Positions 6,151 through 33,964 of a stretch of 64,000 bases of DNA are shown here, piece by piece (position 1 is the stretch's first letter; the number at the start of each line of letters is the position of its first letter). Source of the DNA: Rhodoblastus sphagnicola. GTDB taxonomy: Bacteria; Pseudomonadota; Alphaproteobacteria; Rhizobiales; Beijerinckiaceae. The notes beneath the pieces are model-generated. The model saw only the letters and a program-made list of their open reading frames with translations, ran no database searches and had not been told where the DNA came from. The stretch lies in assembly GCF_002937075.1 (NCBI RefSeq), contig NZ_NHSJ01000073.1, forward strand, positions 62,001 to 126,000. The letters run 5' to 3'. Position numbers and translations under genes: made by a program.

Positions 6151-7235
6151 TTGCCGTCGATGTGAAGATTGCGCGCGGGGATTTCTCGCTTGAGATCGCC
6201 TTCGACAGCGCGTCGAAGATCACGGCCTTGTTCGGGCATTCCGGGTCGGGCAAGACGACGCTGATCGAGTTGATCTCGGGGTTGGCGCGGCCGGATTCGG
6301 GCCGCATCGAAGTGGCGGGCCGCGTCCTCGTCGATACGGCGAAAAAGGTGTTCATCCCGGCGCGCAAGCGCGGCATTGGCCTGGTGTTCCAGGACGCGCA
6401 ACTTTTCCCGCATTTCAGCGTCGCGCAAAACCTGCGCTTCGCCGCCTTCTTCGCGCCGAAGGACGCGCGAAAACTGCCGTTCGCGCGCGTCGTGGACACC
6501 CTTGGAATTGGCCATCTGATGAAGCGGCGGCCGGCGCAGCTTTCGGGCGGGGAGCGCCAGCGCGTCGGCGTCGCCCGCGCCCTGATGTCGGCGCCGCGCC
6601 TTTTGCTGATGGACGAGCCTTTCGCCTCGATCGACGTGAGCCGGCGCACCAAGGCGATGGAACTGGTCGAACGGGCGCGCGATGAATTCGACACGCCGGT
6701 GGTGCTGGTCTCGCACCAGATCGAGGAGGTGATGCGTCTCGCCGGAACCGTGGTGATGATCGAGCGCGGCCGGGTCGTGGAAGTCGGCGCGCCCGAAGAC
6801 ATTTTCGCCACGGCGCGCGAGGACACGCCGGCCGACCGTTTCGGCGTGGGCGCGAGCCTCGCCTGTGGCGCGGCGGATTTCGACGCGCGGTATCGCCTGA
6901 CCAGACTGCACCATCCCGCCGGGGACATTTTCATTCCCGACCGTATCCCGCCGGCGCGGGAGACGCGGGTGTTCATCAAATCCGTCGATGTGACGCTGGC
7001 GCGCCGCCCGCCGCCGGACACGTCGATCCGCACGATTCTGCGCGGCAAAGTCGCAAGCATTGCGACGGGCAAGGGGCCGCTGGCCATGGCCAGCATCGAA
7101 CTCGACGGCGGCGAGAAGCTCTTTTGCGCGCTCACGCGCATGGCGGTCGATGACTTGGGGCTCGTCCCCGGCGCCGAGGTTTTCTGCCTCGTCAAGGCGG
7201 TGGCGCTCGACGAACGGCAGGTCGAGACGGTTTGA
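6147..7235 (+). CDS. modC: Molybdate ABC transporter ATP-binding protein ModC
   Basis: A 362-residue ABC ATPase. Walker A GHSGSGKTT lies near residues 30-38, followed by the Q-loop FQDAQLFPHF, signature LSGGERQRV, Walker B LLLMDEPF and H-loop LVSHQ. A C-terminal TOBE/MOP-like domain (about residues 285-355) is typical of ModC and binds oxyanion for regulation. It couples ATP hydrolysis to molybdate or tungstate import with ModB. The start ATG overlaps the modB stop (ATGA). Confidence 0.9.
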   Translation: MIAVDVKIARGDFSLEIAFDSASKITALFGHSGSGKTTLIELISGLARPDSGRIEVAGRVLVDTAKKVFIPARKRGIGLVFQDAQLFPHFSVAQNLRFAAFFAPKDARKLPFARVVDTLGIGHLMKRRPAQLSGGERQRVGVARALMSAPRLLLMDEPFASIDVSRRTKAMELVERARDEFDTPVVLVSHQIEEVMRLAGTVVMIERGRVVEVGAPEDIFATAREDTPADRFGVGASLACGAADFDARYRLTRLHHPAGDIFIPDRIPPARETRVFIKSVDVTLARRPPPDTSIRTILRGKVASIATGKGPLAMASIELDGGEKLFCALTRMAVDDLGLVPGAEVFCLVKAVALDERQVETV

Positions 7236-13471: not shown

Positions 13472-14317
13472 TCAGAACTTGCCCGCCTGATAATCCGCAT
13501 AGGCCTGCATCAACTCCTCGCGCGTGGTCATCACGAAGGGGCCGCTCCAGGCGACGGGTTCGCGCAACGGCCGGGCCGCCAGCAACAGCGCTTTGGCGCC
13601 CGCCGCGCCGGCTTTGAGCCGCGCCGTCCGGCCCGGCCCCAGCGCCGCCAGCGTCAGCCCGCGCAGCGCGATGGCGCCGGTTTCGCCCGGCGCCTCCGCC
13701 TCGCCCTCATAAACCACGAAAAAACCTTCGTGGTCTTCGGGGAGATCGTGGACGAAGGCGGCGCCGGGGGCGAGGGCGATGTCGAGGTAAACGGCGTCCA
13801 CATGCGGCGCCCGCACCGGCCCCGCGACGCCATCAGCCGTTCCCGCGATGACTTTTATCGTCGCGCCCTCGCGCTGAACGACCGGAATTTGCGCCGCCTT
13901 GAACTCCTGATAGGCGGGATCGGACATTTTTTCCGCCGCCGGCAGGTTGATCCAAAGCTGAAAGCCGCGCATCAAACCTTCGGTTTGCTCGGGCATTTCG
14001 GAATGGATCAGACCGCGTCCGGCCTTCATCCATTGCACGTCGCCGGCTTCGATCACGCCGGAATGGCCGTGATTGTCGAAATGCCGCATTTTTCCGGCCA
14101 GCATGTAGGTGACGGTCTCGAAGCCCCGGTGCGGATGGTCCGGGAAGCCGCCGATATAGTCGCCCGGCCGCTCCGAGCCGAAGAAATCCAGCATCAGGAA
14201 GGGGTCGAGCGGCGGCTGGGCGCGGGAGCCGATCAGCCGGGTCATGCGGACGCCGGCGCCGTCGGAGGTCGCCTCGCCGTGGGACAGGGAAATGATTTTG
14301 CGATTTGTCGCGCTCAT
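13472..14317 (-). CDS. Pirin family protein
   Basis: A 281-residue bicupin. The pirin N-terminal metal site is visible in DHPHRGFETVTYML, followed by HFDNHGHSGVIEAGDVQWM and GRGLIHSEMP, giving the His/His/His/Glu set. The C-terminal cupin is present (LPEDHEGFFVVYEGEAEA). Bacterial pirins include quercetinases and redox-linked regulators of central metabolism. The start has AAGGAG upstream. It lies 79 bases after an ArsR-type regulator on the same strand and is probably its operon partner and target. Confidence 0.92.
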   Translation of the reverse strand: MSATNRKIISLSHGEATSDGAGVRMTRLIGSRAQPPLDPFLMLDFFGSERPGDYIGGFPDHPHRGFETVTYMLAGKMRHFDNHGHSGVIEAGDVQWMKAGRGLIHSEMPEQTEGLMRGFQLWINLPAAEKMSDPAYQEFKAAQIPVVQREGATIKVIAGTADGVAGPVRAPHVDAVYLDIALAPGAAFVHDLPEDHEGFFVVYEGEAEAPGETGAIALRGLTLAALGPGRTARLKAGAAGAKALLLAARPLREPVAWSGPFVMTTREELMQAYADYQAGKF

Positions 14318-14396
14318 GAGAAGTCTCCTTGAGCGCCAGATCGTGCCTTGTGCGAAAATAAGAAGGGTTCAGGGCAAGAGTTTGCAAAAACGCAAA

Positions 14397-14735
14397 TTAA
14401 ACACGGGGGCAAAAAGTCTCGTAGAGCACGCCGATCAGCCGTTCCACGCGGATGTCGGCCAGCGCATAGCGTATGCTCTGACCATCGCGGGTGGCGCGCA
14501 CCAGACCGTCCTTGCGCAGCAGGGCGAGGTGCTGGGAAATGAGGCTCTGCCGCGCCGCCAGTCGTTCGGTGATCTCGCCGACCGTGGCCTCGCCGTCGGC
14601 AAGCAGGCACAGGATGCGCAGGCGCACGGGATTGGCGAGCGACTTTAAAAACTCGCTCGCCTGTTCCGCCGCCACGCCCAAAGCGGCGGGATCGCTGATT
14701 GCGGGGTTGACTTCACTCTTTTTTGTGCGCGCCAT
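14397..14735 (-). CDS. ArsR-family regulator with BigR/SqrR-type cysteine pair
   Basis: A 112-residue winged-helix repressor. LKSLANPVRLRILCLLADGE is followed by the recognition region RQSLISQHLALLRKDGLV. It carries Cys43 (in LRILCLL) and Cys109 (in LYETFCPRV), the same positions and spacing as the two cysteines that sense persulfide in SqrR and BigR, and it lacks the metal-binding motif ELCVCDL. It therefore probably senses reactive sulfur or oxidants rather than metals. It precedes the pirin gene on the same strand and likely controls it and itself. Confidence 0.87.
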   Translation of the reverse strand: MARTKKSEVNPAISDPAALGVAAEQASEFLKSLANPVRLRILCLLADGEATVGEITERLAARQSLISQHLALLRKDGLVRATRDGQSIRYALADIRVERLIGVLYETFCPRV

Positions 14736-14892
14736 GCTCGAAAGTCCGCCAGTCCAAACATCTTGTCAATCGCGTCCGCCGCTGGGCCGGGCGCGCGGGA
14801 GCCTTTTCCACAGCATCGGTTTTGACCCCGCCGCGCGCCAGGGGTAAAAGCGCGCCCCTCACAGGGGCCGCACCACGAATCGAGATTGCGAC

Positions 14893-17238
14893 ATGAACGC
14901 CATCAACCGCCGAATCGCTCAGGAATTGCAGGTCGCGGAGACCCAGGTGACGGCGGCGGTCGATCTGCTCGACGCCGGCTCGACCGTGCCCTTCATCGCC
15001 CGCTATCGCAAGGAGGCGACCGGCGCGCTCGACGACACCCAATTGCGCAATCTCGAAGAGCGCCTGCGTTACTTGCGCGAGTTGGAGGAGCGGCGCAAGG
15101 CGGTGCTGGACTCGATCCGCACGCAGGACAAGCTGACGCCGGAGCTGGAGAAGCAGCTTTTGGGCGCGGAGACCAAGGCGCAGCTTGAAGACATTTACCT
15201 GCCCTACAAGCCCAAGCGCCGCACCAAGGCGACCATCGCCCGCGAGGCCGGCCTCGGCCCGCTCGCCGAGGGACTGCTCGCCAATCCCGCGCTCGACCCC
15301 CGCGCGGAAGCGGAGAAGTTTGTCGATGAGGCCAAGGGGATCAAGAGTGTCGACGAGGCGCTGGACGGCGCGCGCGCCATTCTGGTGGAGAAATTCACCG
15401 AAAAGGCTGAACTGGTCGGGCATTTGCGCGAGAATTTCTGGAACCGTGGGCGTCTTGTCTCGAAAGTTCGCGACGGCAAGACCCAGGACGGCGCCAAATA
15501 TTCGGATTATTTCGACTTTTTCGAACCTCTGACCAAACTGCCGTCGCACCGCATTCTCGCGCTGTTTCGCGGCGAGAAGGAGGAAATGCTCGACCTGACG
15601 CTGGAGCCGGAAGGCGCCGCCGAGACGGAGGCCAACGGCGAACGGGCCTATGAGCAGGCGATAGCCGCCAGTTTTGGCGTGGCCGAGCGCGGCCGTCCCG
15701 CCGACAAATGGCTGGGCGACGCCGTGCGCTGGGCCTGGCGCACAAGGCTGAAGATTTCGCTGTCGGTCGATCTGCGCGCAAAACTCTGGCAGAACGCCGA
15801 GGAGCAGGCGGTCAAGGTTTTCGCGGGCAATTTGCGCGATCTGCTGCTGGCGGCGCCGGCGGGGCCGCGCGCCACCATGGGACTCGATCCCGGCTTCCGC
15901 ACCGGCGTAAAAGTCGCGGTGGTCGACGCCACCGGCAAGGTGGTGGACACAGGCGTGATCTATCCCCACGAGCCGCAGCGGCGCTGGGACGACGCCCTCG
16001 CCATTTTGGGCGCGCTGTGCCTGAAGCACAAGGTGGAGCTGATCGCCATCGGCAATGGCACGGCCTCGCGCGAGACCGACAAGCTCGCAAGCGAATTGGT
16101 GGCGAAACTGCCGGGCTCGAAGATGACGAAAATCGTGGTCTCCGAAGCCGGCGCCTCGATTTATTCGGCCTCCGCCTTCGCCGCCGCTGAATTGCCCGAC
16201 CTCGACGTCACCTTGCGCGGCGCCGTCTCGATCGCGCGCCGCTTGCAGGACCCGCTGGCGGAACTGGTGAAGATCGACCCGAAAAGCATCGGCGTCGGCC
16301 AGTACCAGCACGATCTCGCGGAATTCAAGCTGTCGCGCTCGCTCGACGCGGTGGTGGAGGATTGCGTCAACGCCGTGGGCGTCGATCTCAACACGGCGTC
16401 GGCGCCGCTGCTGGCGCGCGTGTCGGGCCTGGGCGAATCGCTCGCCGGCAATATTGTCGCCCATCGCGACGCCAACGGCGTTTTTAAAACTCGGACGGAG
16501 CTGAAGAAGGTGCCCCGCCTCGGCGCCAAGGCGTTCGAGCAATGCGCCGGCTTTTTGCGCATTCGCGATGGCAATGACCCGCTCGACGCCTCGGGCGTCC
16601 ATCCCGAAGCCTATCCGCTGGTGCGCAAGATTTTGGCCGCCGCCAAGGCCGACATTCACGTGGTGATCGGCGATTCCAAGATTTTGCGCGCGTTAAAGCC
16701 GAAGGAATTCGCCGACGAGCAGTTCGGCCTCCTCACCGTCACCGACGTGTTCAAGGAGTTGGAAAAGCCCGGCCGCGATCCCCGCCCCGAGTTCAAGACC
16801 GCCACTTTCATGGACGGTGTGGAAAAACTCTCCGACCTCAGACCGGGCATGGTGCTGGAGGGCGTGGTCACCAATGTCGCGGCTTTCGGCGCCTTCGTCG
16901 ACATTGGCGTGCATCAGGACGGCCTTGTGCATATTTCCGCCATGTCGAAAACCTTCATCAAGGACCCGCGCGAGGCGGCCAAGCCCGGCGATGTGGTCAA
17001 GGTCAAGGTTTTGGAGGTGGATGCGCCGCGCAAGCGCATCGCCCTGACCATGCGGCTCGACGACGCCTTTGACGCCAGGGCGTCCAGTGGGGGGGCAGGG
17101 GCGGGCGGTCGCCCGCAACAAGGCCAGCGGCAGGATTTTGCCAAACATGCGCCGTCGCGCCCGGCGACGGGCAACGCCTTCGCCGAGGCCTTCGCCCGCG
17201 CCAGCAAGGACGCGCCGCCGCCGAAAAAGGGCAGATAG
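14893..17238 (+). CDS. tex: Tex-family RNA-binding transcription accessory protein
   Basis: A 781-residue Tex protein. It has the N-terminal helical Tex domain (VPFIARYRKEATGALDD), a YqgF/RNase H-like domain starting at MGLDPGFRTGVKVAV, and helix-hairpin-helix motifs (NTASAPLLARVSGLGESLA). A C-terminal S1 domain (VLEGVVTNVAAFGAFVDIGV) is followed by a low-complexity Gly/Ala/Gln tail. Tex binds nucleic acid and associates with transcription and translation. The length is normal and the gene stands alone. Confidence 0.96.
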   Translation: MNAINRRIAQELQVAETQVTAAVDLLDAGSTVPFIARYRKEATGALDDTQLRNLEERLRYLRELEERRKAVLDSIRTQDKLTPELEKQLLGAETKAQLEDIYLPYKPKRRTKATIAREAGLGPLAEGLLANPALDPRAEAEKFVDEAKGIKSVDEALDGARAILVEKFTEKAELVGHLRENFWNRGRLVSKVRDGKTQDGAKYSDYFDFFEPLTKLPSHRILALFRGEKEEMLDLTLEPEGAAETEANGERAYEQAIAASFGVAERGRPADKWLGDAVRWAWRTRLKISLSVDLRAKLWQNAEEQAVKVFAGNLRDLLLAAPAGPRATMGLDPGFRTGVKVAVVDATGKVVDTGVIYPHEPQRRWDDALAILGALCLKHKVELIAIGNGTASRETDKLASELVAKLPGSKMTKIVVSEAGASIYSASAFAAAELPDLDVTLRGAVSIARRLQDPLAELVKIDPKSIGVGQYQHDLAEFKLSRSLDAVVEDCVNAVGVDLNTASAPLLARVSGLGESLAGNIVAHRDANGVFKTRTELKKVPRLGAKAFEQCAGFLRIRDGNDPLDASGVHPEAYPLVRKILAAAKADIHVVIGDSKILRALKPKEFADEQFGLLTVTDVFKELEKPGRDPRPEFKTATFMDGVEKLSDLRPGMVLEGVVTNVAAFGAFVDIGVHQDGLVHISAMSKTFIKDPREAAKPGDVVKVKVLEVDAPRKRIALTMRLDDAFDARASSGGAGAGGRPQQGQRQDFAKHAPSRPATGNAFAEAFARASKDAPPPKKGR

Positions 17239-22670: not shown

Positions 22671-23090
22671 GGCGCGCTGTCACGGCCGCGGGCGATCGCG
22701 GCCGATCGCAAAGGCCCGGTCGTCCGGCGCTTCGACAAGCTCCGCCAGTGAAGCCTCGGCGCGCGCGGTGGGGCCGTCGCCGCATGCGTTCGTGTCGGGG
22801 CTGTCTCGCGTAAAATTCGATAAATCTGGTGTTTTTTACGCTTCGACAATGACGGAGGCGGGCGGTTTTTCTCGCCGGCCGTTCCGCGCTCTCGCACGTC
22901 CCCCGATGGCTGCTCACGTTGCGCCGGCTGATGCGTCGCATCGGCATTCCAGTCACGATTGAGACGCTTGCGTCATAGCATGGTCGAATGAACTGGAAAA
23001 GCAATTGAAATTGACGTTCCTACTAGGAAAAAGGATTATTCGCCCGATTCAACCGGCCAATGCGATTGGCTTGAAGCGAAAAGGGGCCCC
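22671..23090. other. 420-base gap between serA and the radical SAM gene
   Basis: No supported gene is seen. The left part is GC-rich with a short GGCCGCG..CGCGGCC stem but no T-run. The right 100 bases are AT-richer and carry a good promoter candidate (annotated separately). A short low-confidence frame on either strand is not supported. Confidence 0.6.
23011..23039 (+). promoter_or_regulatory. Sigma-70-like promoter with a palindrome in the spacer
   Basis: TTGACG (23011-23016) and GATTAT (23034-23039) are separated by 17 bases, about 50 bases upstream of the radical SAM start. The spacer contains a perfect inverted repeat TTCCTA-C-TAGGAA (23017-23029), directly where a repressor or a MerR-type activator would bind. 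Confidence 0.5.
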
Positions 23091-24326
23091 ATGGTTTGCG
23101 TCTCTCCCATCCGGCTGCGAAACGAGGCTCCGTTCACCGAAGTCGTCGCCGGCCATCCAGAGTTTCCGCTGCTGATCGCCTTGAAGATCGACGTGCAGCG
23201 CAGGGGACTCAACTACACCAGGCGCGCCATGGACGCCGTCGATCCCGCGCGCCATCAGATCTATATGTGGGAGGGCGTCGCCTATCCCCATTCCATGCTG
23301 CTGCGCGACGGCACGACCATTCTCGCCTATCCCCAGCCTCGGGATCGCAACCCCTATGATGTCGATTTTCTCGACGGCCGCTTCGTGCTCATCGATGGCG
23401 GCGAGGTGGTCGAAACCGTCGATCTCTGGCCGAAACCGCTCTATTACGACAAGAAGACGCGCTCCGGCCTGCCGATGAAGGAAGTGGTTTCGGCGCGGCC
23501 GCAACGGCTCGATATTTTCGCCAGCAGTTTTTGCCACTTCGCCCATGTCGACGACCAGGGTTGCCAGTTCTGCCCGCTGCCGCACCACCACAGCCAATTG
23601 CGCGAGACCTACGACCTCCCGACCCGGCTGAAGTCCGAGGACGTCAAGGAATGCATCGCCGAGGCGCTCAAGGAGACCGGCCGTTTCACCAATATTCACA
23701 TCACCGGCGGCTCGGTGATCAAGGGCCACGAAATGCTCGACGCCGAGCTGGACTATTACATCAAGCTTTTGCGCGCGATCGGCGAACTCTTCGCCACGCC
23801 GCGATTCCCCAGCCAGTTGCTCGCCAGCCCCTTCAGCGAGGGACAGCTCATTCGCCTGCGCGAGCAAACCGGTCTCGGCAGCTACACCTCCAACATCGAA
23901 GTGCTGGACGAGGCGCGCTTCAACTGGATCTGCCCCGGCAAGGCCCATCACATCGGCTACCGGGAATGGAAGCGCCGGCTGGTGCGGGCGGTTGAGGTTT
24001 TCGGGCGCGGCAATGTCGGCACCGGCATTGTCGGCGGCGTCGAAACCGCGCCGCCCCACGGCTTTGTTTCGGAGAGCGACGCGCTGCGCGCCACGCTCGA
24101 CGAAGCCGAGGATTTGGCCCGCCAGGGCGTGACCACGGTCCACACCGTCTGGGCGCCGCAGAAGGGCTCGAAATTCCACGATCTGAAGACGCCCTCGCTC
24201 GATTATTTCATCCGCCTCGCCAGCGGCTTGCAGGCGATCCGCGCGCGTCACGGGCTCTCGGTGGATTTCGATGACTATCGCCGCTGCGGCAACCATCCCG
24301 ACAGCGATCTCGCCCGGCTTCAGTGA
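23091..24326 (+). CDS. Radical SAM-like protein with CX9CX2C motif
   Basis: A 411-residue protein. The putative 4Fe-4S ligands lie at about residues 149-162: SSFCHFAHVDDQGCQFC, i.e. C-x9-C-x2-C rather than the usual CX3CX2C. It is followed by HITGGSVIKG (the GGE-like SAM strand) and GTGIVGGVETA, giving a radical SAM barrel pattern. An N-terminal extension of about 145 residues precedes the motif. The next gene, an FMN split-barrel protein, starts 8 bases after the stop, so the two probably act together. Substrate and product are unknown, and I do not recognise a named family. Confidence 0.75.
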   Translation: MVCVSPIRLRNEAPFTEVVAGHPEFPLLIALKIDVQRRGLNYTRRAMDAVDPARHQIYMWEGVAYPHSMLLRDGTTILAYPQPRDRNPYDVDFLDGRFVLIDGGEVVETVDLWPKPLYYDKKTRSGLPMKEVVSARPQRLDIFASSFCHFAHVDDQGCQFCPLPHHHSQLRETYDLPTRLKSEDVKECIAEALKETGRFTNIHITGGSVIKGHEMLDAELDYYIKLLRAIGELFATPRFPSQLLASPFSEGQLIRLREQTGLGSYTSNIEVLDEARFNWICPGKAHHIGYREWKRRLVRAVEVFGRGNVGTGIVGGVETAPPHGFVSESDALRATLDEAEDLARQGVTTVHTVWAPQKGSKFHDLKTPSLDYFIRLASGLQAIRARHGLSVDFDDYRRCGNHPDSDLARLQ

Positions 24327-24334
24327 GGACAGAC

Positions 24335-24802
24335 ATGACGATTCGGCTCGACCCGGACGTGGCGGACCTGCTCGCGGACACCGACACGATCAAGATTCTG
24401 GCGACCGTGGGCGCCGATGGCGCGCCCCATGCGGTGGTGAAACAATCGATCCATCTCGGCGAGGACGGCAATATCCATTATCTTGAACGGCTGGAATCCT
24501 CCGTCACCAACAAGAACATGGTGCGGAGCATCTGGTTCAACCGCACGGTCGCGATCACGCTCGCCCATGGCGACGGACGCTCCGTGCAGATCAAGGGGCG
24601 TCCGGTCAAGGCGCATATCACCGGCGAACTGTTCCTGCGCCATTACCGCGCGGCGCGGGCTGGAGACCCCGAAGCCGATCTCGCGGCCGTCTGGGTGATC
24701 GAGCCACAGACAGTCACCAACCAGAACGCGCGCGCGCGCCGCGAGGCGGAGGCGGCGCTCCACCCGCATTTCATCCATCTGGACCGGCTGGCGCGGGCCT
24801 GA
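24335..24802 (+). CDS. Pyridoxamine 5'-phosphate oxidase-like FMN split-barrel protein
   Basis: A 155-residue protein with the split-barrel pattern (TIKILATVGADGAPHAVVKQ, then MVRSIWFNRTVAITLAHGDG and VQIKGRPVKAHITGELFL). Such proteins bind FMN, F420 or heme and commonly act as small reductases. The start ATG at 24335 has GAGGAC upstream. It directly follows the radical SAM gene and may serve as its redox partner (inference). Confidence 0.82.
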   Translation: MTIRLDPDVADLLADTDTIKILATVGADGAPHAVVKQSIHLGEDGNIHYLERLESSVTNKNMVRSIWFNRTVAITLAHGDGRSVQIKGRPVKAHITGELFLRHYRAARAGDPEADLAAVWVIEPQTVTNQNARARREAEAALHPHFIHLDRLARA

Positions 24803-24944: not shown

Positions 24945-25574
24945 TTAAGCGGTCGTCGCCAACTGGCCAACGGCGAGCCGAACCAGGGCGTCCTCGAATT
25001 CCGGCGTCCCGATCAAGGCCGAATCTTCATGGACGGCGGCGCGGATGGCCCCGAGCACGCCTCGCGTCGCGACGAACATGGCTGCGTCGCTTGGCGGCGG
25101 AAAGGCCGGGTGATTGCGGCGGACAATGGCCAATTTGATCCGCGCCGCCAACGCCTGGGCCGAGGCTATCACCTCGGGCGAATGATCCAACCGCCAGCCG
25201 CGTTTCAGCAAGGGACGGAAAATTCGTGGCGCCACGCCAAAGCCATCGACGAGCGCGCGGACAAAAAGCCTGATCAGCAACAGAGGGTCGGTGTCGCTGC
25301 TTTCAGTATCCACAACAAACTGTTCAAGATGAGCCATCATGCGCTGGCGCTCGCTGGCGATCATCGCCAGGAGTATGGCGTCCATGTTGGGAAAATACTG
25401 GTAGAGCGTGCCAATGGAAAAGCCGGCGCGCTCGGCGACCCGATTGGTGGTCAGCGCCTTCTCGCCCTCCTGGTCCAGAATCTGAGCCGTCGCCTCAAAG
25501 ATCGTGAAAACGGTGCTCCGGGAACGCGCCTGCTTCGGCTTTTTCCTAACGCGTTCAGTCTGTTGTTCCTCCAC
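24945..25574 (-). CDS. TetR/AcrR-family regulator
   Basis: About 209 residues. The N-terminal helix-turn-helix (ATAQILDQEGEKALTTNRVA, then ERAGFSIGTLYQYFPNMDAI) is clear, with a helical ligand domain after it. GTG at 25574 is selected because AGGAGG lies 7 bases upstream; longer in-frame starts would extend into the divergent promoter region. It is divergent from the crtI-like gene across about 137 bases, so it may control that gene and itself. Confidence 0.85.
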   Translation of the reverse strand: MEEQQTERVRKKPKQARSRSTVFTIFEATAQILDQEGEKALTTNRVAERAGFSIGTLYQYFPNMDAILLAMIASERQRMMAHLEQFVVDTESSDTDPLLLIRLFVRALVDGFGVAPRIFRPLLKRGWRLDHSPEVIASAQALAARIKLAIVRRNHPAFPPPSDAAMFVATRGVLGAIRAAVHEDSALIGTPEFEDALVRLAVGQLATTA

Positions 25575-25711
25575 GACGGCGCCTCCTGGGAATGCGAGTC
25601 CAAAATGTGAGCCTTGCTCACTATTGTGACGAGGTCCAGCGCCTGACGTCCACGCATCTTTTCTCAGGGTGTGCGACGGCGGCGTTTCGATCAAAACCCC
25701 GAGGCGCCGTC

Positions 25712-27238
25712 ATGTCAGCCGATCCCGCGATCCCGTTTCCTTCAAACAAACCCCGCGCCGTCATCATCGGCAGCGGCTTTGGCGGATTGGCGGCGGCGGT
25801 GCGACTGGGCGCGCGCGGCTATGACGTTACTGTACTCGAACGGCTCGATCGGCCCGGCGGTCGCGGCCGCGCCTATGTGCAGGACGGCTTCACCTTCGAT
25901 TCCGGGCCGACGATCATCACCGCGCCCTTCCTGTTCGAAGAACTTTGGCGGCTCTGCGGTAAGACTTTTTCCGACGACATCGATCTGCGCGCATTGGACC
26001 CTTACTATCGAATCGTGTTCGACGCCGGAGGCCATTTCGACGCCTGTGCCGACGACGCGGCGATGAAGCAGGAGATCGCGCGCATCTCGCCGGAGGACGT
26101 CGAGGGCTACACGCGCTTCATGCAGCACAGCGAGCGGCTGTTCCGGATCGGATTCGAAAAATTCGGACACGTCCCGTTCGACCATCTGTCGCAGATGATC
26201 GGCATTGTTCCCGACCTCGTTCGGGCGCGCGCGGATCGCAGCGTTTACGCGACCGTTTGCGACTATGTGAAGCACCCGCATCTGCGCTTTGCGTTGAGCT
26301 ATCATCCCCTGTTCATCGGCGGCAATCCGTTCCGGGCCTCGTCGATCTATTGCATGATCTCCTATTTCGAGCGGCATTGGGGCGTTCACTTCGCGATGGG
26401 CGGCACGGGCGCGCTGGTCAAGGGCCTGGTCGGGCTGATCGAAGGCCAGGGCGGCGTCATCCGCACCAAAGCCGAAGTGGCGGAAATCACCGTCGAGAAC
26501 CGCCGCGCCACTGGCGTCCGGCTTGCCTCCGGCGAAACCATCGCCGCCGATATCGTGGTGTCCAACGCCGACACCGCCACGACCTATGCAAAGTTGCTGG
26601 CCAAGGCGCCGAGAAAATGCTGGACCGATCGCAAGCTCGATCGCGCCGCCTATTCGATGAGCGTCTTCGTCTGGTATTTCGGAACCCGACGGAAATACCC
26701 GCGGGTACAACCGCATACGATCCTGGTCGGGCCGCGCTACGGCGCGCATGTCGCCGATATTTTCGACCGCAAGGTTTTGGCGGAAGATTTCAGCCTCTAT
26801 CTCTATCGCCCGACCGCGATCGATCCGAGCCTCGCGCCCGAGGGCTGCGATACGTTTTATGCGCTGTCGCCGGTTCCGCACATGGACAGTGGCGTGGACT
26901 GGTCGAGCAAGGCCGAACCCTACCGGCAGGCCATCGCCCGGCGCCTTTCGGAGACGCTTCTGCCGGGCCTTGAAGACGAGGTGGTTACATCGCGGATCTT
27001 CACGCCTCAGAATTTTCAGGATGTCCTGCAATCGCGCAAGGGCGCCGCGTTTGGATTTGAGGCCGCGCTGACGCAAAGCGCGTGGTTCCGGCCACATAAC
27101 AAGAGCGAAGATATCGAACGTCTCTACCTGGTCGGCGCCGGCACGCATCCCGGCGCGGGCGTCCCGACGGTCCTGTCATCCGCCCGCGTCCTGGACGCTG
27201 TCACGCCCGATCCGCGTTCGATGCTGGAGACGTGCTGA
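25712..27238 (+). CDS. CrtI-like phytoene desaturase family protein
   Basis: A 508-residue FAD-dependent desaturase. The dinucleotide fold GSGFGGLAAAVRLGARGYDV and LERLDRPGGRG lie at the N-terminus, and the bacterial phytoene desaturase signature is at the C-terminus (LYLVGAGTHPGAGVPTVLSS). It likely introduces double bases-pairs of conjugation in a carotenoid precursor (phytoene or an apo-product). No crtB or other carotenoid gene is nearby. It is divergent from a TetR gene. The exact number of desaturation steps cannot be predicted. Confidence 0.88.
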   Translation: MSADPAIPFPSNKPRAVIIGSGFGGLAAAVRLGARGYDVTVLERLDRPGGRGRAYVQDGFTFDSGPTIITAPFLFEELWRLCGKTFSDDIDLRALDPYYRIVFDAGGHFDACADDAAMKQEIARISPEDVEGYTRFMQHSERLFRIGFEKFGHVPFDHLSQMIGIVPDLVRARADRSVYATVCDYVKHPHLRFALSYHPLFIGGNPFRASSIYCMISYFERHWGVHFAMGGTGALVKGLVGLIEGQGGVIRTKAEVAEITVENRRATGVRLASGETIAADIVVSNADTATTYAKLLAKAPRKCWTDRKLDRAAYSMSVFVWYFGTRRKYPRVQPHTILVGPRYGAHVADIFDRKVLAEDFSLYLYRPTAIDPSLAPEGCDTFYALSPVPHMDSGVDWSSKAEPYRQAIARRLSETLLPGLEDEVVTSRIFTPQNFQDVLQSRKGAAFGFEAALTQSAWFRPHNKSEDIERLYLVGAGTHPGAGVPTVLSSARVLDAVTPDPRSMLETC

Positions 27239-27368: not shown

Positions 27369-28685
27369 TCAAATGTCGCCAGCGGTCAAAGGGCGAGATC
27401 GGCGAGGCGACAGCGCGCGAAGCGCGACCGGCGCCAGCAGATAGGCGAGGGCGGAAACCATCAAGATGGGAAGATAGCCGCCGCCGCCCGAGAGGATGCG
27501 GCCTGTCGCGGCCAGCAGCGCCATGCCGCCGAGATTGCCGCACAGCGCGCCCAGCGCGGTGACGCGACCGACGCGCGAGGCCGGAACCGCATCGGTGAGC
27601 GTGGCGAACAGATTGACCGAAAAGCTCTGATGGCCCGCCAGCGCCAACCCGAGCACGGCGGTCGCCTGCCAGAGCTGATCGACGCAAAGCGCCAGCGGCA
27701 TGGAGGCGGCGAGGAGCGCCGACCCGGCCAGCACCCGGCCGCGCGCGACGCTGAGATCGGCCTGTGACCGCGCCAGCGTCGTCGAGAGCGCGCCGCCGAC
27801 GAAGGCGCCCGCCGCCGCCATCAGGTAGATGCAGGCCACCGGCCGTCCCAGGGCGGCGACGTCGAGATGAAACAGCCGGTTGAACAGGTCGGGCAGCCAG
27901 AACAGCAGCAGCCACCACGCCTGGTCCGAGAGCACCTTGGCGCCGACCAGCGCCCAGGTGGCGCGATCCGCGAGAATGACGCGCCAGGAGTCCCCTAGGC
28001 CGTCCCTCAGACCGTCTTTCGGCTCGTCCTTGCGCTCGTCCGCGTTGGTCTCGCGCGTGGGCCAGCTTATGCGCGCGGAAAAAACCATCCACGCCGCGCA
28101 CCAAAAAAGTCCGAGCGCGCCGACGCACAGGAAGCACATGCGCCAGCCGACCAGCAGCGCGAAGGCGGGCAGCGCCAGCGGCGTGACGATGGCGCCCACG
28201 CTGCTCGCGGCGTTCATCACCCCCAGCGCCAGGGCGCGGCCGCGCGAGTCGAACAGGGCCGCCAGCGTCTTGATCGCGGTCGGCGTGCCCATGGCCTCCG
28301 TCGCGCCCAGCGCCAAGCGCGCGGCGGCGAACTGGCCCAGCGTGACGGCGAGGCCGTGGGCGGCGGCGGCGAGGCTCCACGACCCGACCGCGATCAGGTT
28401 GGACGTCCTCGGCCCCAGCCGGTCGACCAGCCAGCCCACCAGCGGGAAGGCCAGCACGGCGCCGAACTGGAACACGGCGGCGAGATCGCCGTAATCCGCG
28501 TCGCTCCAGCCAAGCTCCCGCGCCAGAATCGGCTTGAGCACGGCGATCAACTGGCGATCGACATAGTTGAGGATTCCCGCGGTGACGACGAGGGCCAGCA
28601 GCCATTTCTGCTTAAACAGGCTCGGGGCGTGGCTTGGCGACGCGGCGCCGGACGAGGCCGCCCGACGCGCGTCGGAAATCGTCAC
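27369..28685 (-). CDS. MFS transporter (ACS/hexuronate-type)
   Basis: A 438-residue, 12-helix major facilitator. The first helix region NYVDRQLIAVLKPILARELGW and the loop GWLVDRLGPRTSNLIAVGSW follow the anion:cation symporter (ExuT-like) pattern. The cytoplasmic loop between helices 6 and 7 is charged (about residues 213-235). The GTG start overlaps the stop of the TonB receptor gene by 4 bases (GTGA), so it is the inner-membrane partner of that receptor. The substrate is probably an organic acid or sugar acid, not defined. Confidence 0.87.
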   Translation of the reverse strand: MTISDARRAASSGAASPSHAPSLFKQKWLLALVVTAGILNYVDRQLIAVLKPILARELGWSDADYGDLAAVFQFGAVLAFPLVGWLVDRLGPRTSNLIAVGSWSLAAAAHGLAVTLGQFAAARLALGATEAMGTPTAIKTLAALFDSRGRALALGVMNAASSVGAIVTPLALPAFALLVGWRMCFLCVGALGLFWCAAWMVFSARISWPTRETNADERKDEPKDGLRDGLGDSWRVILADRATWALVGAKVLSDQAWWLLLFWLPDLFNRLFHLDVAALGRPVACIYLMAAAGAFVGGALSTTLARSQADLSVARGRVLAGSALLAASMPLALCVDQLWQATAVLGLALAGHQSFSVNLFATLTDAVPASRVGRVTALGALCGNLGGMALLAATGRILSGGGGYLPILMVSALAYLLAPVALRALSPRRSRPLTAGDI

Positions 28686-31126
28686 AGCTCCTTGCGGATG
28701 CTGATGCCGAAATAGCGGCCGTCGTCGCGCGGAACCCAGCGGTAGACGTAGGCCGCCGTGCCCGGCGCGGCGGTGGCGCCCGAGCTTTGCAGATAGGAGG
28801 CGTAGGAGGTGTTGAGGATGTTCTTCACGAGAACGGTGAACTTCAATCCGGCGCTGGCGTTGGACAGCGTCACGTCCGCGTCCCAGATACCATAGGCTTT
28901 TTGAATCGTGTCGGGCGATTCGCCGAGGTCATACTGAACCTTACTTTGCCAGCGCACGGCCGTGCCGAAATCGAGCGCATATTGGTCCAGCCACGGCACG
29001 GTGTAGTCCGCGCGCAGGTTGGCCTTCCATTTCGGCGTGAACGGCAGGGCGCCGCCCTTGATCGGCCAGTTGCGCCCGACGACATTGGTGCTGGTGATGG
29101 CCGCGTCGGTGAAGGCCGCCGCGCCCTTGAGCGAGAGTTCGTCGGTGACGGCCGCGTTGAAATCGGCTTCCACGCCCTGACTTGTCACCGTCCCGGCATT
29201 GACCAGATTGGTCACCACCGCGCCGCCGATCAGATTGGGGAAATTCGCCTGGAAATTGTCGAAAACGGTGTGGAAGGCGGCGAGATTGAGCAGGACGCGA
29301 TTGTCGAACAGTTTTGACTTCAGCCCGAGTTCGAACGAGTTGGACGTCTCGGCGGCGAGCACCTGACCCTGCGTCGCCGGAACCATGTTGAAAAAGACGT
29401 TGTAGGCCGGCCCCTTGTAGCCGCGCGAATAGGTGGCGTAGGTCGTCGCCCAGCTTGTGGCGTCATATTCGAAGCCGGCGCGCGCGGCATAGCCCGTCTT
29501 GAAGACATGGCCGGTGGAATAGGGCGAAGAGGCGGCGATGCCGGTGTCGGCGGCGGTGGACTGGCGCGAATGATAATAGCTCAGGTCGTCGCCGATCAGG
29601 CGCCATCCGGCGATCGCCCGGAAGGTCGGCGCGAGGTTGAGCGTGTTCTCGTTGAAGGCGGCGATATTGTTGTTGCTGACGCCATAGGGGGCGACGCCGG
29701 TGTTGGTGACGGCGCCCAGCGTGTCCGTGCGCTGATAGGTTTCCTTGTCGTCGTCATGCAGGAAATAAAGTCCGGCGACATATTCCCAAAATTGCCCGCG
29801 CGCGGAGGCCAGCCGCAGCTCCTGTGAAACCTGGTTGAACGCCAGCTTGCCGTGATCGACGGTCTGCTTGGCCGAAGGCGTCGAGGTCCGGTCGAAGTCC
29901 TGGCGCTGCTCGTTGTTCCAGAAGCGATAGGCGGTGATCGACGTCAGCGTGTGGTCGCCGAGCTTCTTGTCGACCTGGATCGAGGCGCCGCCATTGTCGT
30001 CGTCCGCGTAGGTAAACGTGTTGGTGTTGATGAAGCGGTTGCCGCTGGAGGCGACCACCGGCGAGATCTGTTTGGCGAAGTTCGGGTTGGGCGTGATCAC
30101 GCCGCCGGGATAGGCGACGTTCGTGCTGGTGATGACGCCGGTGGGGTTGGTCTCGCGCGAATGCAGGTAGTCCAGCGTGATCAGCACGCGCAGGTCGGCT
30201 TCGGGGGTGATCTCGAATTTCGCCCGCGCGCCGTCATGGGTCGATCCGTTCACCTTGTCGTCGTTGTAGAGATTGGTGACGTTGCCGTCATAGCTGGTGG
30301 CCACCACGCTCAGCAGGCCGTTGACGACGCCGGGAACGATGGCGCCGGACACGCCGGTTTTCAGGCGAACCTCCTTGCCGGTGTAATAGGAGACGTCGCC
30401 ATAGGCGTGGAATTCCGGGGTCGGCTGCGCCGTCGTGACATTGACCACGCCGGCGGAGGAATTCTTGCCGAACAGGGTGCCCTGCGGCCCCTTGAGCACC
30501 TCGATGCGGTCGACGTCGAACAGGTCGAGCGTGGCCTGGCCCGGACGCGCCAGCACAACGCCGTCCACGACCGTGGAGACGGAGGGTTCGGCGCCGGGCG
30601 AGGTGGTCACGGTGCCCACGCCGCGAATGAACAGGCCCTGGTCCTTGTTCGAGGCGCCGTCGCGGAAATTGAGGCTCGGCACGAGCTGGCTGATATCGTT
30701 GATGTTGTTGAGATTGGCCTGCGCCGCCTGCGCGCCGTCGACCACGGTGACGGCCACGGGCACCTTTTGCGACTTTTCCGGCAACAGCGTGGCGGTGATG
30801 ACGACATCCTCGACATGGATCGATTCGGCCTGGAATTGCGCTGGCGCGACCGGGGGCTGTGTCGGCTGCGCCTGGGGTGCGGCTTGCGCTTGGGTTGCGG
30901 CTTGGGCTTGGCGCGGCGCGGTTTTGGCGCGCGCGTGCTTCGGCTTCTTGGCCTGCGCGTTCGCCTGGGGTTCTTGGGGACTCTCGACCTTGTCCTGCGA
31001 CCATGCGGCGGAGGTGGCGGCGACGATCATCGAGGCGGCCAGCAGCGCGCCAAGCGCTACCCCGGTCGCGAAGCGGTTCGGCCGCGTGGACGCGCCCCTG
31101 CACGGATTGTTGTTGTCGTTCTTCAT
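28682..31126 (-). CDS. TonB-dependent outer-membrane receptor
   Basis: An 814-residue receptor. It has a signal peptide (residues about 18-45), an unusual Gln/Ala/Pro-rich stretch (about 50-95), a TonB-box-like EDVVITATLLPEKSQKVPVA and a plug domain (VPSLNFRDGASNKDQGLFIR, DVDRIEVLKGPQGTLFGKNS). A 22-strand barrel ends in an aromatic-rich C-terminus (RYFGISIRKEL). The start ATG at 31126 has AGGAG 7 bases upstream. It is co-transcribed with an MFS gene and is divergent from a LysR gene, which suggests uptake of an organic compound rather than iron alone. Confidence 0.9.
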   Translation of the reverse strand: MKNDNNNPCRGASTRPNRFATGVALGALLAASMIVAATSAAWSQDKVESPQEPQANAQAKKPKHARAKTAPRQAQAATQAQAAPQAQPTQPPVAPAQFQAESIHVEDVVITATLLPEKSQKVPVAVTVVDGAQAAQANLNNINDISQLVPSLNFRDGASNKDQGLFIRGVGTVTTSPGAEPSVSTVVDGVVLARPGQATLDLFDVDRIEVLKGPQGTLFGKNSSAGVVNVTTAQPTPEFHAYGDVSYYTGKEVRLKTGVSGAIVPGVVNGLLSVVATSYDGNVTNLYNDDKVNGSTHDGARAKFEITPEADLRVLITLDYLHSRETNPTGVITSTNVAYPGGVITPNPNFAKQISPVVASSGNRFINTNTFTYADDDNGGASIQVDKKLGDHTLTSITAYRFWNNEQRQDFDRTSTPSAKQTVDHGKLAFNQVSQELRLASARGQFWEYVAGLYFLHDDDKETYQRTDTLGAVTNTGVAPYGVSNNNIAAFNENTLNLAPTFRAIAGWRLIGDDLSYYHSRQSTAADTGIAASSPYSTGHVFKTGYAARAGFEYDATSWATTYATYSRGYKGPAYNVFFNMVPATQGQVLAAETSNSFELGLKSKLFDNRVLLNLAAFHTVFDNFQANFPNLIGGAVVTNLVNAGTVTSQGVEADFNAAVTDELSLKGAAAFTDAAITSTNVVGRNWPIKGGALPFTPKWKANLRADYTVPWLDQYALDFGTAVRWQSKVQYDLGESPDTIQKAYGIWDADVTLSNASAGLKFTVLVKNILNTSYASYLQSSGATAAPGTAAYVYRWVPRDDGRYFGISIRKEL

Positions 31127-31630
31127 TCCACGCTCCTGAAAGTTGCGCGCCGTCCGAGCGCCGCGCGTCGAAATGGCGGTCGGGACAAGTGTCAAATATA
31201 TAGTAAATTGGTCAAATATAATTGATTATGATGCATATTCGCTCAAGCTATGCGTTGGGGGCTTGGCCGCGCGCCGGAGGAACGCAACGAAAGCCGCGGC
31301 GGACAGTTGGGGCGGCGTGGCGCCGGGATCTGTGCCTGTTTGCTGAAAATATGATTTTTTATGCTGTTGGCGCGCGCCGACTGAGAAAACGGTCTCTCTA
31401 GGCCAGCCTGTTCGATCCGCGCCCGCCGCAAGACCGCGGTGGACGGCCAAGGCAGGCATATGTTGAAATAATCACACTTTATAAGTAGATTTGTGGCTGG
31501 ATTTCGGGCGTTTTTCCGGGCGATCACGCCTCCGGCGCTGCGACCCTATGTCGCACCCGTCGCGCCGGCTTGCTCACGTAGAGAGGGGCCGAACAGTGAC
31601 GCTCCCGTTTGAAGGCAGGGCGAACGACCG
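31127..31630. other. 504-base control region between the TonB receptor and lysR
   Basis: No gene is supported. The left 100 bases hold AT-rich repeats (annotated separately) in the promoter position of the receptor operon. The middle is GC-rich, and the part just before lysR has another AT-rich block (about 31461-31490). It probably carries both promoters of the divergent pair. Confidence 0.6.
31191..31229. promoter_or_regulatory. Candidate operator: paired GTCAAATATA repeats plus a palindrome
   Basis: GTCAAATATA occurs at 31191-31200 and 31211-31220, exactly 20 bases apart, i.e. on nearly the same helix face. It is followed by the palindrome ATAAT-TG-ATTAT (31218-31229). Read on the minus strand, each repeat is TATATTTGAC, so each also carries a TTGAC -35-like core upstream of the TonB receptor. 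LysR-type regulators bind such AT-rich dyads; the neighbouring LysR is a natural candidate. Confidence 0.5.
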
Positions 31631-32554
31631 ATGTTGCAGATCCGGCAGATCGAAGCATTCCGAAGCGTGATGCTGGCGGGAGGCATCACCAATGCCGCGG
31701 CCATGATGCATATCAGCCAGCCCTCGGTCAGCCGCCTGATTGGCGATCTCGAACGCGCCGTCGGCTTTCCGCTGTTCGAGCGCAAGGGGCGACGGCTTGC
31801 GCCGACTCGCCGCGCCGAAGTGTTTTACGAAGCCGTGCGGAAAAGTTTCACCGGGCTCGACCTGCTGGAGCAGGCGGCGCGGCGCATTCAGGCCCATACG
31901 GTTGAAACCATTCGCGTCTCGGCGCTTTCCGCGCTCGCTGGCGGCGTTCTCCCCCAGGCCATCGCCGAATTCCAGGCCGAATATCCTGACGTCAAAGTGT
32001 CGGTTGACGGCCAGTCGCAACGCGGCGTCGAAGACCGCGTCTTTCTGGGGCAGGCCGATCTCGGACTCGGCGTGCGGCAGCCGTTTCGCGAAGGCGTCGG
32101 CGTGACCTCGCTGGCGTCGGCTGAATATGTCTGCGCGCTTCCCCCCGGCCACCGACTCGCCGATCGCGAATTGATCCACGCCTCCGATCTCGAGGGCGAG
32201 CGCTTGATCGGGCCGATGCACGAGGCCGACGCCCTGTGGGACGCCATCGACCGGACGTTACATGACGAGGGCGTCGCCGTCCGGCGCCCCGTCGAGACCG
32301 ATCTGTCGTTTCCCGCCTATTGTTACGTTGCGTCCGGGCTTGGCGTCGCCATCGTCGAGCCGTTTTCGGCGCCGCTGTTCGCCAAGCTCGGAATTGGCTT
32401 TCGCCGCTTCCGGCCGAAAATCACGCTGGATTATGTGCTGATCGAACCCACGCATCTCGGTCCCGCGCCGGAGGCGATGGTCTTCTTTCGTGACGCCGTG
32501 CGTCGCGCCAGCGACGACTTGCTGAAGAAAGCCGATCGGCTCGTCGCGCCTTGA
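31631..32554 (+). CDS. LysR-family regulator (OccR/NocR-like)
   Basis: A 307-residue LysR protein. The N-terminal HTH is clear (EAFRSVMLAGGITNAAAMMH, SQPSVSRLIGDLE, LFERKGRRL), and a periplasmic-binding-like effector domain follows. The N-terminus resembles regulators of opine or amino-acid catabolism. It is divergent from the TonB receptor-MFS operon and converges with the amino-acid permease cluster, so it could control either. The ATG at 31631 is the family start. Confidence 0.87.
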   Translation: MLQIRQIEAFRSVMLAGGITNAAAMMHISQPSVSRLIGDLERAVGFPLFERKGRRLAPTRRAEVFYEAVRKSFTGLDLLEQAARRIQAHTVETIRVSALSALAGGVLPQAIAEFQAEYPDVKVSVDGQSQRGVEDRVFLGQADLGLGVRQPFREGVGVTSLASAEYVCALPPGHRLADRELIHASDLEGERLIGPMHEADALWDAIDRTLHDEGVAVRRPVETDLSFPAYCYVASGLGVAIVEPFSAPLFAKLGIGFRRFRPKITLDYVLIEPTHLGPAPEAMVFFRDAVRRASDDLLKKADRLVAP

Positions 32555-32680: not shown

Positions 32681-33964
32681 TCACAGACTGGCCGTGAATG
32701 CCTGCTCGATGTCCCAGATCAGATCGTCCGGGTCTTCCGTGCCAATGGAAAAGCGGATCTGTTCCGGCTTGACGCCGGCCAGTCTCTGTTCCGCCTCGGT
32801 CAATTGACCGTGGGTGACGGTGGCGGGATGGACCACCAGCGATTTGGAATCTCCGACATTGGCGAGGAACGAGAAAATCTTCAGCGCCTCGATGAATTTC
32901 TTGGCGCGCTCGAAGCCGCCCTTGATGCCAAAAGTCAGGATCGCGCCGGGTCCCTTGGGCAGATATTTCCGCGCCAGCGCGTGATAGGGGCTTGTCTTCA
33001 GGCCGGGATAATTGACCCACTCCACATCCGCGTGGGTCTGCAAAAATTCGGCGATGCGCTGGGTGGTTTCAACCTGCCGCCGCAGCCTTAGCGATAAGGT
33101 CTCCAGCCCCTGCAAAAACAGGAAGGCGTTGAACGGACTGAGGCAGGCGCCGAAGTCGCGGAGATAGTGCAAGCGGGCCTTCACGATGAAGGCCTGATTG
33201 CCCCATTTCTCCCAGTGGATGAAATTGCTGTAGGCGGGGTCGGGGGTGGTGAAGTCCGGGAATTTGCCATTGCCCCAGTTGAAATTGCCGCCATCGACGA
33301 TCAACCCGCCGATGCTGGTGCCGTGGCCGCCGATATATTTGGTCGCCGAATGGACCGAAATATTGGCCCCGTAATTGAACGGCAGGAACAGATAGGGCGT
33401 CCCAAAAGTGTTGTCGACGATCAACGGCACGCCGTGGTCCTCGGCGATACGGGCCACCGCCTCGAAATCCACGATGTTGATGTCGGGATTGCCGATGGTT
33501 TCGACAAAAATCGCCTTGGTCCGCTCGGTGAGCGCGCGGCGGAAGTTTTCGGGGTCGACGGGATCTACCAGGGTGGTCTTGACTCCGTGCTTGGGCAAGG
33601 TGTTGACGAACAGGTTGAAGCTGCCGCCATAGAGGGTTTTCGCCGCAACGATTTCATCGCCGGCATGGGTGATGTTCAGGATCGTGGTAGCCGTCGCCGC
33701 CGAGCCGGAGGCGACGGCCAGGGCGCCGCTGCCGCCTTCAAGAGCGGCGATCCGGTTTTCCAGCACTTCATTGGTCGGGTTGACGATCCTTGTATAGTCG
33801 TAGCCGGCCTCCTCCGCCGAACTGATCCCCTTGGCCTGGGCGAAATCCTTGAAGACAAAAGAGGTGGTCTGGTAGATCGGAACCGCCCGCGCCCCGGTGG
33901 TCGGGTCGGGAACCTGCCCTGCATGGAGTTGCAAGGTGTCGAAACTCAATTGACGTTGGCTCAT
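32681..33964 (-). CDS. metY: O-acetylhomoserine aminocarboxypropyltransferase (MetY family)
   Basis: A 427-residue PLP enzyme of the Cys/Met metabolism family. The PLP-lysine motif SVHSATKYIGGHG is present, with YTRIVNPTNEVLENRIAALE near the N-terminus and a long insert around IHWEKWGNQAFIVKARLHYL typical of MetY. It makes homocysteine or a thioether from O-acetylhomoserine and sulfide or methanethiol. It is the last gene of a four-gene minus-strand cluster. The start ATG is 18 bases after the CMD gene. Confidence 0.92.
   Translation of the reverse strand: MSQRQLSFDTLQLHAGQVPDPTTGARAVPIYQTTSFVFKDFAQAKGISSAEEAGYDYTRIVNPTNEVLENRIAALEGGSGALAVASGSAATATTILNITHAGDEIVAAKTLYGGSFNLFVNTLPKHGVKTTLVDPVDPENFRRALTERTKAIFVETIGNPDINIVDFEAVARIAEDHGVPLIVDNTFGTPYLFLPFNYGANISVHSATKYIGGHGTSIGGLIVDGGNFNWGNGKFPDFTTPDPAYSNFIHWEKWGNQAFIVKARLHYLRDFGACLSPFNAFLFLQGLETLSLRLRRQVETTQRIAEFLQTHADVEWVNYPGLKTSPYHALARKYLPKGPGAILTFGIKGGFERAKKFIEALKIFSFLANVGDSKSLVVHPATVTHGQLTEAEQRLAGVKPEQIRFSIGTEDPDDLIWDIEQAFTASL

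Follow-up and report, generated by a model that had tools for sequence, protein, structure and literature searches.

What is the function of a radical S-adenosylmethionine (SAM) gene that is followed, 8 bp downstream on the same strand, by the gene of a small split-barrel protein? The question is raised by a locus of the purple bacterium Rhodoblastus sphagnicola, located in a stretch of 64,000 nucleotides of contig NZ_NHSJ01000073.1 (positions 62,001 to 126,000) that is called here the window; the host genome is 5.09 Mb. An initial annotation of the same DNA had seen in this pair a small biosynthetic or cofactor-modifying unit behind a palindromic promoter. The comparison of the pair with its relatives leads us to a different proposal. 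With a probability of roughly 60%, the two genes serve to assimilate organosulfur compounds without the need for oxygen, most likely as a sulfonate desulfonase.

The radical SAM protein and its split-barrel partner

The radical SAM gene (23091-24326, plus strand) encodes a protein of 411 amino acid residues, which belongs to a sister family of the IsrB-like proteins discussed below. It scores about 182.3-182.8 bits against the NCBIfam model NF045502 (cut-off 125); the Pfam model PF04055 stays under its cut-off (18.5 versus 29.5). The predicted model of the protein, built with 44 sequences, has a mean predicted local distance difference test score (pLDDT) of 91.4. Its fold matches are nearly tied: lipoyl synthase (Z 17.2), HydE (17.1), NifB (16.1) and biotin synthase (15.8). 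The three-cysteine motif, the NF045502 score and the radical SAM folds up to Z 17.2 place the protein in the radical SAM superfamily. Sequence searches of the PDB with this protein gave nothing useful. Membership in the MSMEG_0568 family (TIGR04043) was considered and rejected at 48.3 bits against a cut-off of 303.7, and a search of the open-access literature for MSMEG_0568 returned no paper. In a scan of one genome per species, the closest named relative is the protein of Rhodoblastus acidophilus DSM 137 with 89% identity.

The cluster cysteines C148-X9-C158-X2-C161 are invariant in all 44 rows of alignment A1, which holds the window protein and 43 other copies. Cys281 and Cys399 are likewise invariant in these 44 rows and, judged from this conservation, could be ligands of a second cluster or have a catalytic role. 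Both A1 and a second alignment, A2 (23 rows), are hand-chosen sets without fragments, near-copies and most second copies. The initial annotation took the cysteine spacing as its main clue. The CX9CX2C pattern is present, but it is a one-residue variant of the usual CX8CX2C of the family: the latter occurs in 46 of 54 rows and CX9CX2C in eight, in two separate parts of the tree. As a minority form it was rejected as a defining oddity. The N-terminal extension, also pointed out at that time, is real as well; because the NF045502 match begins at residue 30, it is a feature of the whole family and no peculiarity of the window protein.

The second gene (24335-24802, plus strand, with its ATG at 24335) encodes a PNPOx/HupZ-like split-barrel protein of 155 residues. 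The mean pLDDT of its predicted model is 91.5. The best fold match is HupZ (Z 17.1, root-mean-square deviation 1.7 over 117 residues), which establishes the split-barrel fold, and further matches are the flavin mononucleotide (FMN)-binding protein of D. vulgaris (Z 13.5) and HutZ (Z 10.8). The residue identity to these proteins is about 13-23%. By sequence the partner is recognised weakly, with 21 bits for PF01243 (cut-off 28.1) and weak HupZ matches in a PDB search with its profile. The fold is thus common to HupZ, HutZ and the FMN-binding split barrels, but the gene neighbours are different. The partner had been described as an FMN/F420-type protein. The split barrel stands; membership in the F420-dependent PPOX family (TIGR03618) was rejected. 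With a score of 16.1 bits, under the TIGR03618 cut-off of 79.05, the use of F420 is unsupported by the sequence.

A split-barrel gene on the same strand, between -150 and +300 bp from the radical SAM stop codon, was found in 43 of 55 rows, corresponding to 42 of 54 distinct non-window copies. The window itself (L001) is omitted from both counts, and the 54 distinct copies also omit L002, which is the same place as L008. The conserved, linked pair of radical SAM and split-barrel genes is real; as a CX9CX2C protein with a linked split barrel it is borne out by the open reading frames, by NF045502, by the predicted folds and by the 8-bp spacing. The initial annotation had named in advance, as evidence against the pair, homologues in which the cysteines are not conserved or the genes are unlinked. 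What was found is conservation of the cysteines in 44 of 44 rows and linkage in 42 of 54 copies.

Gene neighbourhood across the family

Fifty loci came out of the scan (one genome per species), and 47 of them carry close family members (at least 42% identity). By their labels, these 47 loci come from eight phyla, Pseudomonadota, Chlorobiota, Thermodesulfobacteriota, Myxococcota, Bacillota, Spirochaetota, Synergistota and Acidobacteriota, and many are metagenome bins. Neighbours were counted within 8 kb as clusters of mechanically derived open reading frames, with cluster names taken from one or a few members. The genome-neighbourhood survey that had been recommended for the pair finds the split barrel, by this cluster count, in 38 of the 47 loci.

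The most frequent other neighbours are the parts of an SsuABC-type importer of the ATP-binding cassette (ABC) class: the SsuA-type binding protein in 34 loci, the permease in 30, the ATPase in 35 and the complete trio in 29. All nine binding proteins that were scanned, from nine of the 34 loci having one, pass the aliphatic-sulfonate cut-off of TIGR01728. MetK is present in 14 loci, and in 10 of these it lies at most 250 bp upstream of a radical SAM copy, which fits a high demand for SAM. MetY occurs in 12 loci, CysK in five, a sulfite-reductase-type protein in four, DUF2292 in four, and TusA and ThiS in three each; single cluster members were named NIR_SIR, TusA, JAB and DUF2292 by Pfam. The binding protein or at least one of MetK, MetY, CysK, sulfite reductase, TusA, ThiS and DUF2292 is found in 37 loci, and none of them in 10. 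NifH-type proteins are present in 10 loci and NifDK-type proteins in six. An SsuD equivalog (cut-off 518.2) is encoded in two loci, L014 (582.0) and L015 (587.6), among adjoining ABC genes that an opposite-strand open reading frame separates from the pair, and TauD (cut-off 313) in one, L032 (469.6), downstream on the shared strand.

A control was made with the 30 loci of at least 15 kb, compared with 20 arbitrary 17-kb stretches from six alphaproteobacterial genomes. The binding protein was found in 22 of 30 targets versus 0 of 20 controls, the split barrel in 28 versus 0, the permease in 22 versus 1 and the ATPase in 24 versus 5. For the sulfur genes the corresponding values are 8 versus 1 (MetK), 11 versus 1 (MetY), 5 versus 0 (CysK) and 3 versus 0 (sulfite reductase). 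The queries stem from the very loci that were scored, which favours the targets, and all controls belong to a single class; the comparison therefore gives the direction and not a precise enrichment. The recurring neighbours are importers and sulfur-assimilation enzymes, which argues for nutrient scavenging and not for the biosynthetic or cofactor-modifying unit first suggested.

Several further genes were noted at particular loci. In L016, L018, L019, L020, L051 and L054, an Acyl-CoA:6-APA-acyltransferase-like hydrolase, an acyl-CoA ligase and parts of a 2-oxoacid:ferredoxin oxidoreductase lie downstream of the importer genes and might be concerned with the carbon part of the substrate. A B12-binding radical SAM protein is encoded shortly behind the pair or the importer in seven of the 47 loci (L013, L014, L015, L021, L022, L025 and L052). 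Near the pair of L028, L029, L033 and L038 there is a gene resembling the D-component of 2-hydroxyglutaryl-CoA dehydratase together with its ATP-driven activator, a possible supply of low-potential electrons. Arylsulfotransferase-like genes are located near the radical SAM gene in L036 (563-11054) and L026 (9364-10803); L036, a Granulicella bin, also has an outer-membrane barrel and a major facilitator superfamily (MFS) carrier on either side, and a radical SAM/SPASM protein. L011 (6196-7926) and L012 (6196-7884) each encode a thiamine pyrophosphate (TPP) enzyme of the acetolactate-synthase type, located upstream of the radical SAM gene and with the binding-protein gene on its other side. The suspicion that it is Xsc was dropped, since PRK08199 matches it best and the best 25 of 50 models do not include Xsc. 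Finally, L027 and L030 each contain three copies of the radical SAM gene and several binding proteins, and there may be one copy per substrate.

Putative import genes, promoter and regulator in the window lineage

The window protein forms one clade with those of R. acidophilus (L008), Telmatospirillum (L009) and L010, with a value of 100 in the Shimodaira-Hasegawa-like approximate likelihood ratio test (SH-aLRT). In this subclade a TonB-dependent receptor and an MFS carrier are found in place of the ABC importer. The MFS transporter gene of the window (27369-28685, minus strand; PF07690, 156.7 bits) and the receptor gene (28682-31195, minus strand; PF00593 and PF07715) are likely parts of the uptake system, and their orthologues are near the pair in all three relatives. 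The residue identities to the window for receptor and carrier are 84% and 76% in R. acidophilus, 67% and 58% in L009, and 60% and 52% in L010, where both genes immediately precede the radical SAM gene and share its strand. Between the pair and these two genes the window has a TetR gene and a CrtI-like gene (24945-27238); the matches in R. acidophilus flank this stretch on both sides, with none inside. No SsuABC-type cluster was found in the window, where a lone ABC ATPase match lies at 6144-6770. The gene for O-acetylhomoserine sulfhydrylase, MetY (32681-33964, minus strand; TIGR01326 603.3 bits, cut-off 495.1), adjoins a LysR gene, and its membership in the unit is uncertain.

Among 60 relatives, a close full-length match to the radical SAM protein was found only in the genome itself and in one other (G008). 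For the genus this amounts to two genomes out of 11, a rare and patchy distribution. Among 385 sampled alphaproteobacterial genomes (E <= 1e-60), the genome of the window alone gave a match.

Upstream of the radical SAM gene there is a promoter-like site, TTGACG-17-GATTAT (23011-23039, plus strand), which agrees with the consensus in 9 of 12 positions and has the same core in R. acidophilus DSM 137. Taken alone this match is weak, with one found versus 0.5 expected in shuffles. The perfect palindrome TTCCTA-C-TAGGAA (TTCCTACTAGGAA) reported earlier is present in the promoter spacer at 23017-23029 and is a putative operator. R. acidophilus DSM 137 shares a run of 24 bases around it (GAAATTGACGTTCCTACTAGGAAA) without a change, but has many differences in the 5' flank and the leader. 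The conservation of this promoter block in the sister species makes conditional expression, as originally suspected, plausible. With up to one mismatch, the palindrome is a single site in the whole genome (a reversed control pattern gave three), and thus it is no genome-wide repeated motif. In a survey upstream of the radical SAM gene at 11 loci, the same palindrome was seen in L002 and L008 only, which are one species.

A LysR-type protein (31631-32554, plus strand; PF03466 and PF00126) is the likely regulator of the unit, with counterparts of 83% identity in L008 and 66% in L009; none was found near the pair in L010. In L009 the LysR and radical SAM genes are divergently oriented, with TAGGAA in the same register behind TTGAC in the intervening gap. 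Within the 17.2 kb of L008 there are two copies of the half-site GTAGGAA (on either strand), one belonging to the radical SAM promoter and the other to the gap between the LysR and TonB genes; L009 has three, one of them in the gap between the LysR and radical SAM genes. The half-site is absent from the corresponding LysR/TonB gap of the window, which speaks against a LysR operator. A role of the palindrome as LysR operator is plausible from these motifs, in a comparison made after the fact and with this one result against it.

Proposed function, known systems and competing explanations

The sulfur role of the pair rests on the family-wide gene context. From the sequences we infer the substrate class, the chemistry, sulfite as the product, the cofactor and role of the partner, and the regulator. 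The window lineage would take up the substrate by way of the TonB receptor and the MFS carrier, most other lineages by way of an SsuABC-type importer. The radical SAM enzyme would cleave SAM and abstract a hydrogen atom next to the C-S bond of the substrate. This bond could then break by beta-scission with release of sulfite, as has been proposed for the glycyl-radical sulfite lyases. The split-barrel protein, presumably a flavin carrier, would act as redox partner that gives or takes one electron, for example by reducing a sulfite radical. Sulfite would then be reduced and fixed via MetY or CysK. The LysR protein, bound at the palindrome, might switch the unit on once better sources of sulfur run short.

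A more specific proposal is made tentatively, at somewhat less than even odds: the family would be a radical-SAM-only sulfonate C-S lyase with a split-barrel, probably flavin, electron partner, which desulfonates organosulfonates directly and needs neither oxygen nor a nitrogenase-like complex, a TPP enzyme or a glycyl radical enzyme. Among the papers listed in searches of the open-access literature (at most 12-20 per listing), no title or abstract beginning reports such a stand-alone family. No glycyl radical enzyme gene was recognised among the scanned neighbours of the pair, although no search was aimed at one.

It is important to compare this family with the functionally studied isethionate reductase. 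In Rhodobacter capsulatus, IsrBHDK together with SsuCAB allow the use of isethionate as an anaerobic sulfur source (Morimoto et al. 2024, PMC11423573). This use depends on the radical SAM protein IsrB, and the authors leave undecided whether it cleaves the C-S bond or activates IsrHDK (PMC11423573). The likeness consists of an NF045502-family radical SAM protein, of SsuABC-type import close by across the family, and of the oxygen-free assimilation of sulfonates that is proposed here. However, the window family has a split-barrel partner; no NifH- or NifDK-type cluster match was found in the window, and hence none of the partner genes of IsrBHDK. The cysteine spacing also differs, being CX9 or CX8 in the window family and CX8 in nine IsrB-like rows. 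In the tree, 54 rows of the window family (SH-aLRT 99) and the nine IsrB-like rows (100) are on separate sides as sister groups; this tree was made by a quick method with long branches flagged, and it omits L001, L002, L007, open reading frames under 340 residues and IsrB of R. capsulatus itself. The comparison rows are taken as IsrB-like by their order of genes and pattern of cysteines, and not by comparison with the R. capsulatus protein. With 25-29% identity to the IsrB-like copies and a clade of its own, the window protein is a relative of IsrB and not IsrB itself. Membership in isethionate reductase was rejected on the lack of NifHDK in the window and on the separate clades.

An IsrBHDK-like locus is present elsewhere in the same genome (contig C140, L061:2275-13329), with ABC importer genes, a radical SAM protein and NifH-, NifD- and NifK-like proteins. 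Its radical SAM protein scores 427.1 bits against NF045502, and its binding protein is under the cut-off of TIGR01728 (129.5 versus 163.5). The cysteines lie at about the positions given in the paper: for IsrK Cys12, Cys37 and Cys101 versus 12, 37 and 99, and for IsrH Cys97 and Cys133 versus 99 and 135; the IsrD-like protein has a single cysteine in all, which fits the conserved cysteines described (PMC11423573). An arylsulfatase-type gene (13975-16440) lies behind this locus.

The setting of an SsuABC-type importer and sulfur-assimilation genes is shared with SsuD and TauD, which stand beside the pair in the three loci named above. These two desulfonating enzymes need oxygen, whereas the radical SAM family of the window is presumably oxygen-sensitive. 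If the present reading is right, the oxygen-free radical cleavage of a sulfonate C-S bond is common to isethionate sulfite lyase, IslA/IslB; in that system a glycyl radical enzyme is reported to do the chemistry, with a radical SAM protein as its activase (PMC6453916, PMC6386719, PMC8473560).

Several observations weigh against the sulfur assignment. Twelve of 55 rows have no split-barrel gene in the position directly after the radical SAM one: in L011 the locus ends behind the gene, in L030 the first copy has the split-barrel gene just upstream, in L026 and L044 it is one gene further on, and the remaining exceptions have no split-barrel gene directly behind. SsuA-type proteins might also recognise ligands that are not sulfonates. 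L008, L009 and L010, the closest relatives of the window, belong to the 10 loci that lack the binding protein and all of the sulfur genes counted, and the MetY of the window is without a match in the R. acidophilus stretch (L063). Since none of SsuA, SsuC, SsuD and TauD is next to the pair in the window, the sulfur role there rests on the relatives and on the TonB and MFS genes as putative importers. Lastly, IsrB itself is possibly an activase and not a C-S lyase (PMC11423573).

This last point leads to the best surviving alternative, which we consider unlikely. The radical SAM enzyme would activate or mature another enzyme, like the glycyl-radical activases and perhaps IsrB, with the split barrel as target or helper, and the pair would still serve organosulfur assimilation. 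The maturases HydE and NifB are indeed among the best folds, and NifH-type and NifDK-type genes lie near the pair in the 10 and six loci counted above. However, 37 of the 47 loci are without a NifH-type gene in the counted range and none was matched in the window, and no other catalytic gene recurs as often as the split barrel. A small biosynthetic or cofactor-modifying unit with coincidental neighbours is considerably less probable. Pairs of radical SAM and flavoproteins do occur in biosynthesis, and besides the B12-binding radical SAM protein, the acyltransferase-like hydrolase is found in six of the 47 loci, the acyl-CoA ligase in eight and the 2-oxoacid:ferredoxin oxidoreductase parts in seven to eight; all of these are less widespread than the importers and sulfur-assimilation genes (37 of 47), to which three loci add SsuD or TauD. 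Oxygen-free heme utilisation by a radical SAM protein, a HupZ/HutZ-like split barrel and a TonB receptor, as in the HutWXZ systems, would agree with the top fold of the partner and its HutZ match and with the weak, sub-cut-off matches of the nearby receptor to hemin and siderophore receptor models, but it has the slightest chance of the three and HutW/HutZ heme degradation was rejected, because no HemN- or HutW-type model of Pfam or NCBIfam matched the radical SAM protein at E up to 1 and the neighbours across the family are sulfonate and sulfur genes.

If the radical-SAM-only lyase proposed here is correct, the family would be an oxygen-free counterpart of SsuD and TauD in eight phyla. In that case IsrB might likewise be the component of isethionate reductase that cleaves the C-S bond. 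The nitrogenase-independent sister branch of the IsrB-like proteins, found beside sulfonate importers in several phyla, offers a simpler system for a question raised in the isethionate reductase report, namely whether the radical SAM protein itself breaks the C-S bond (PMC11423573).
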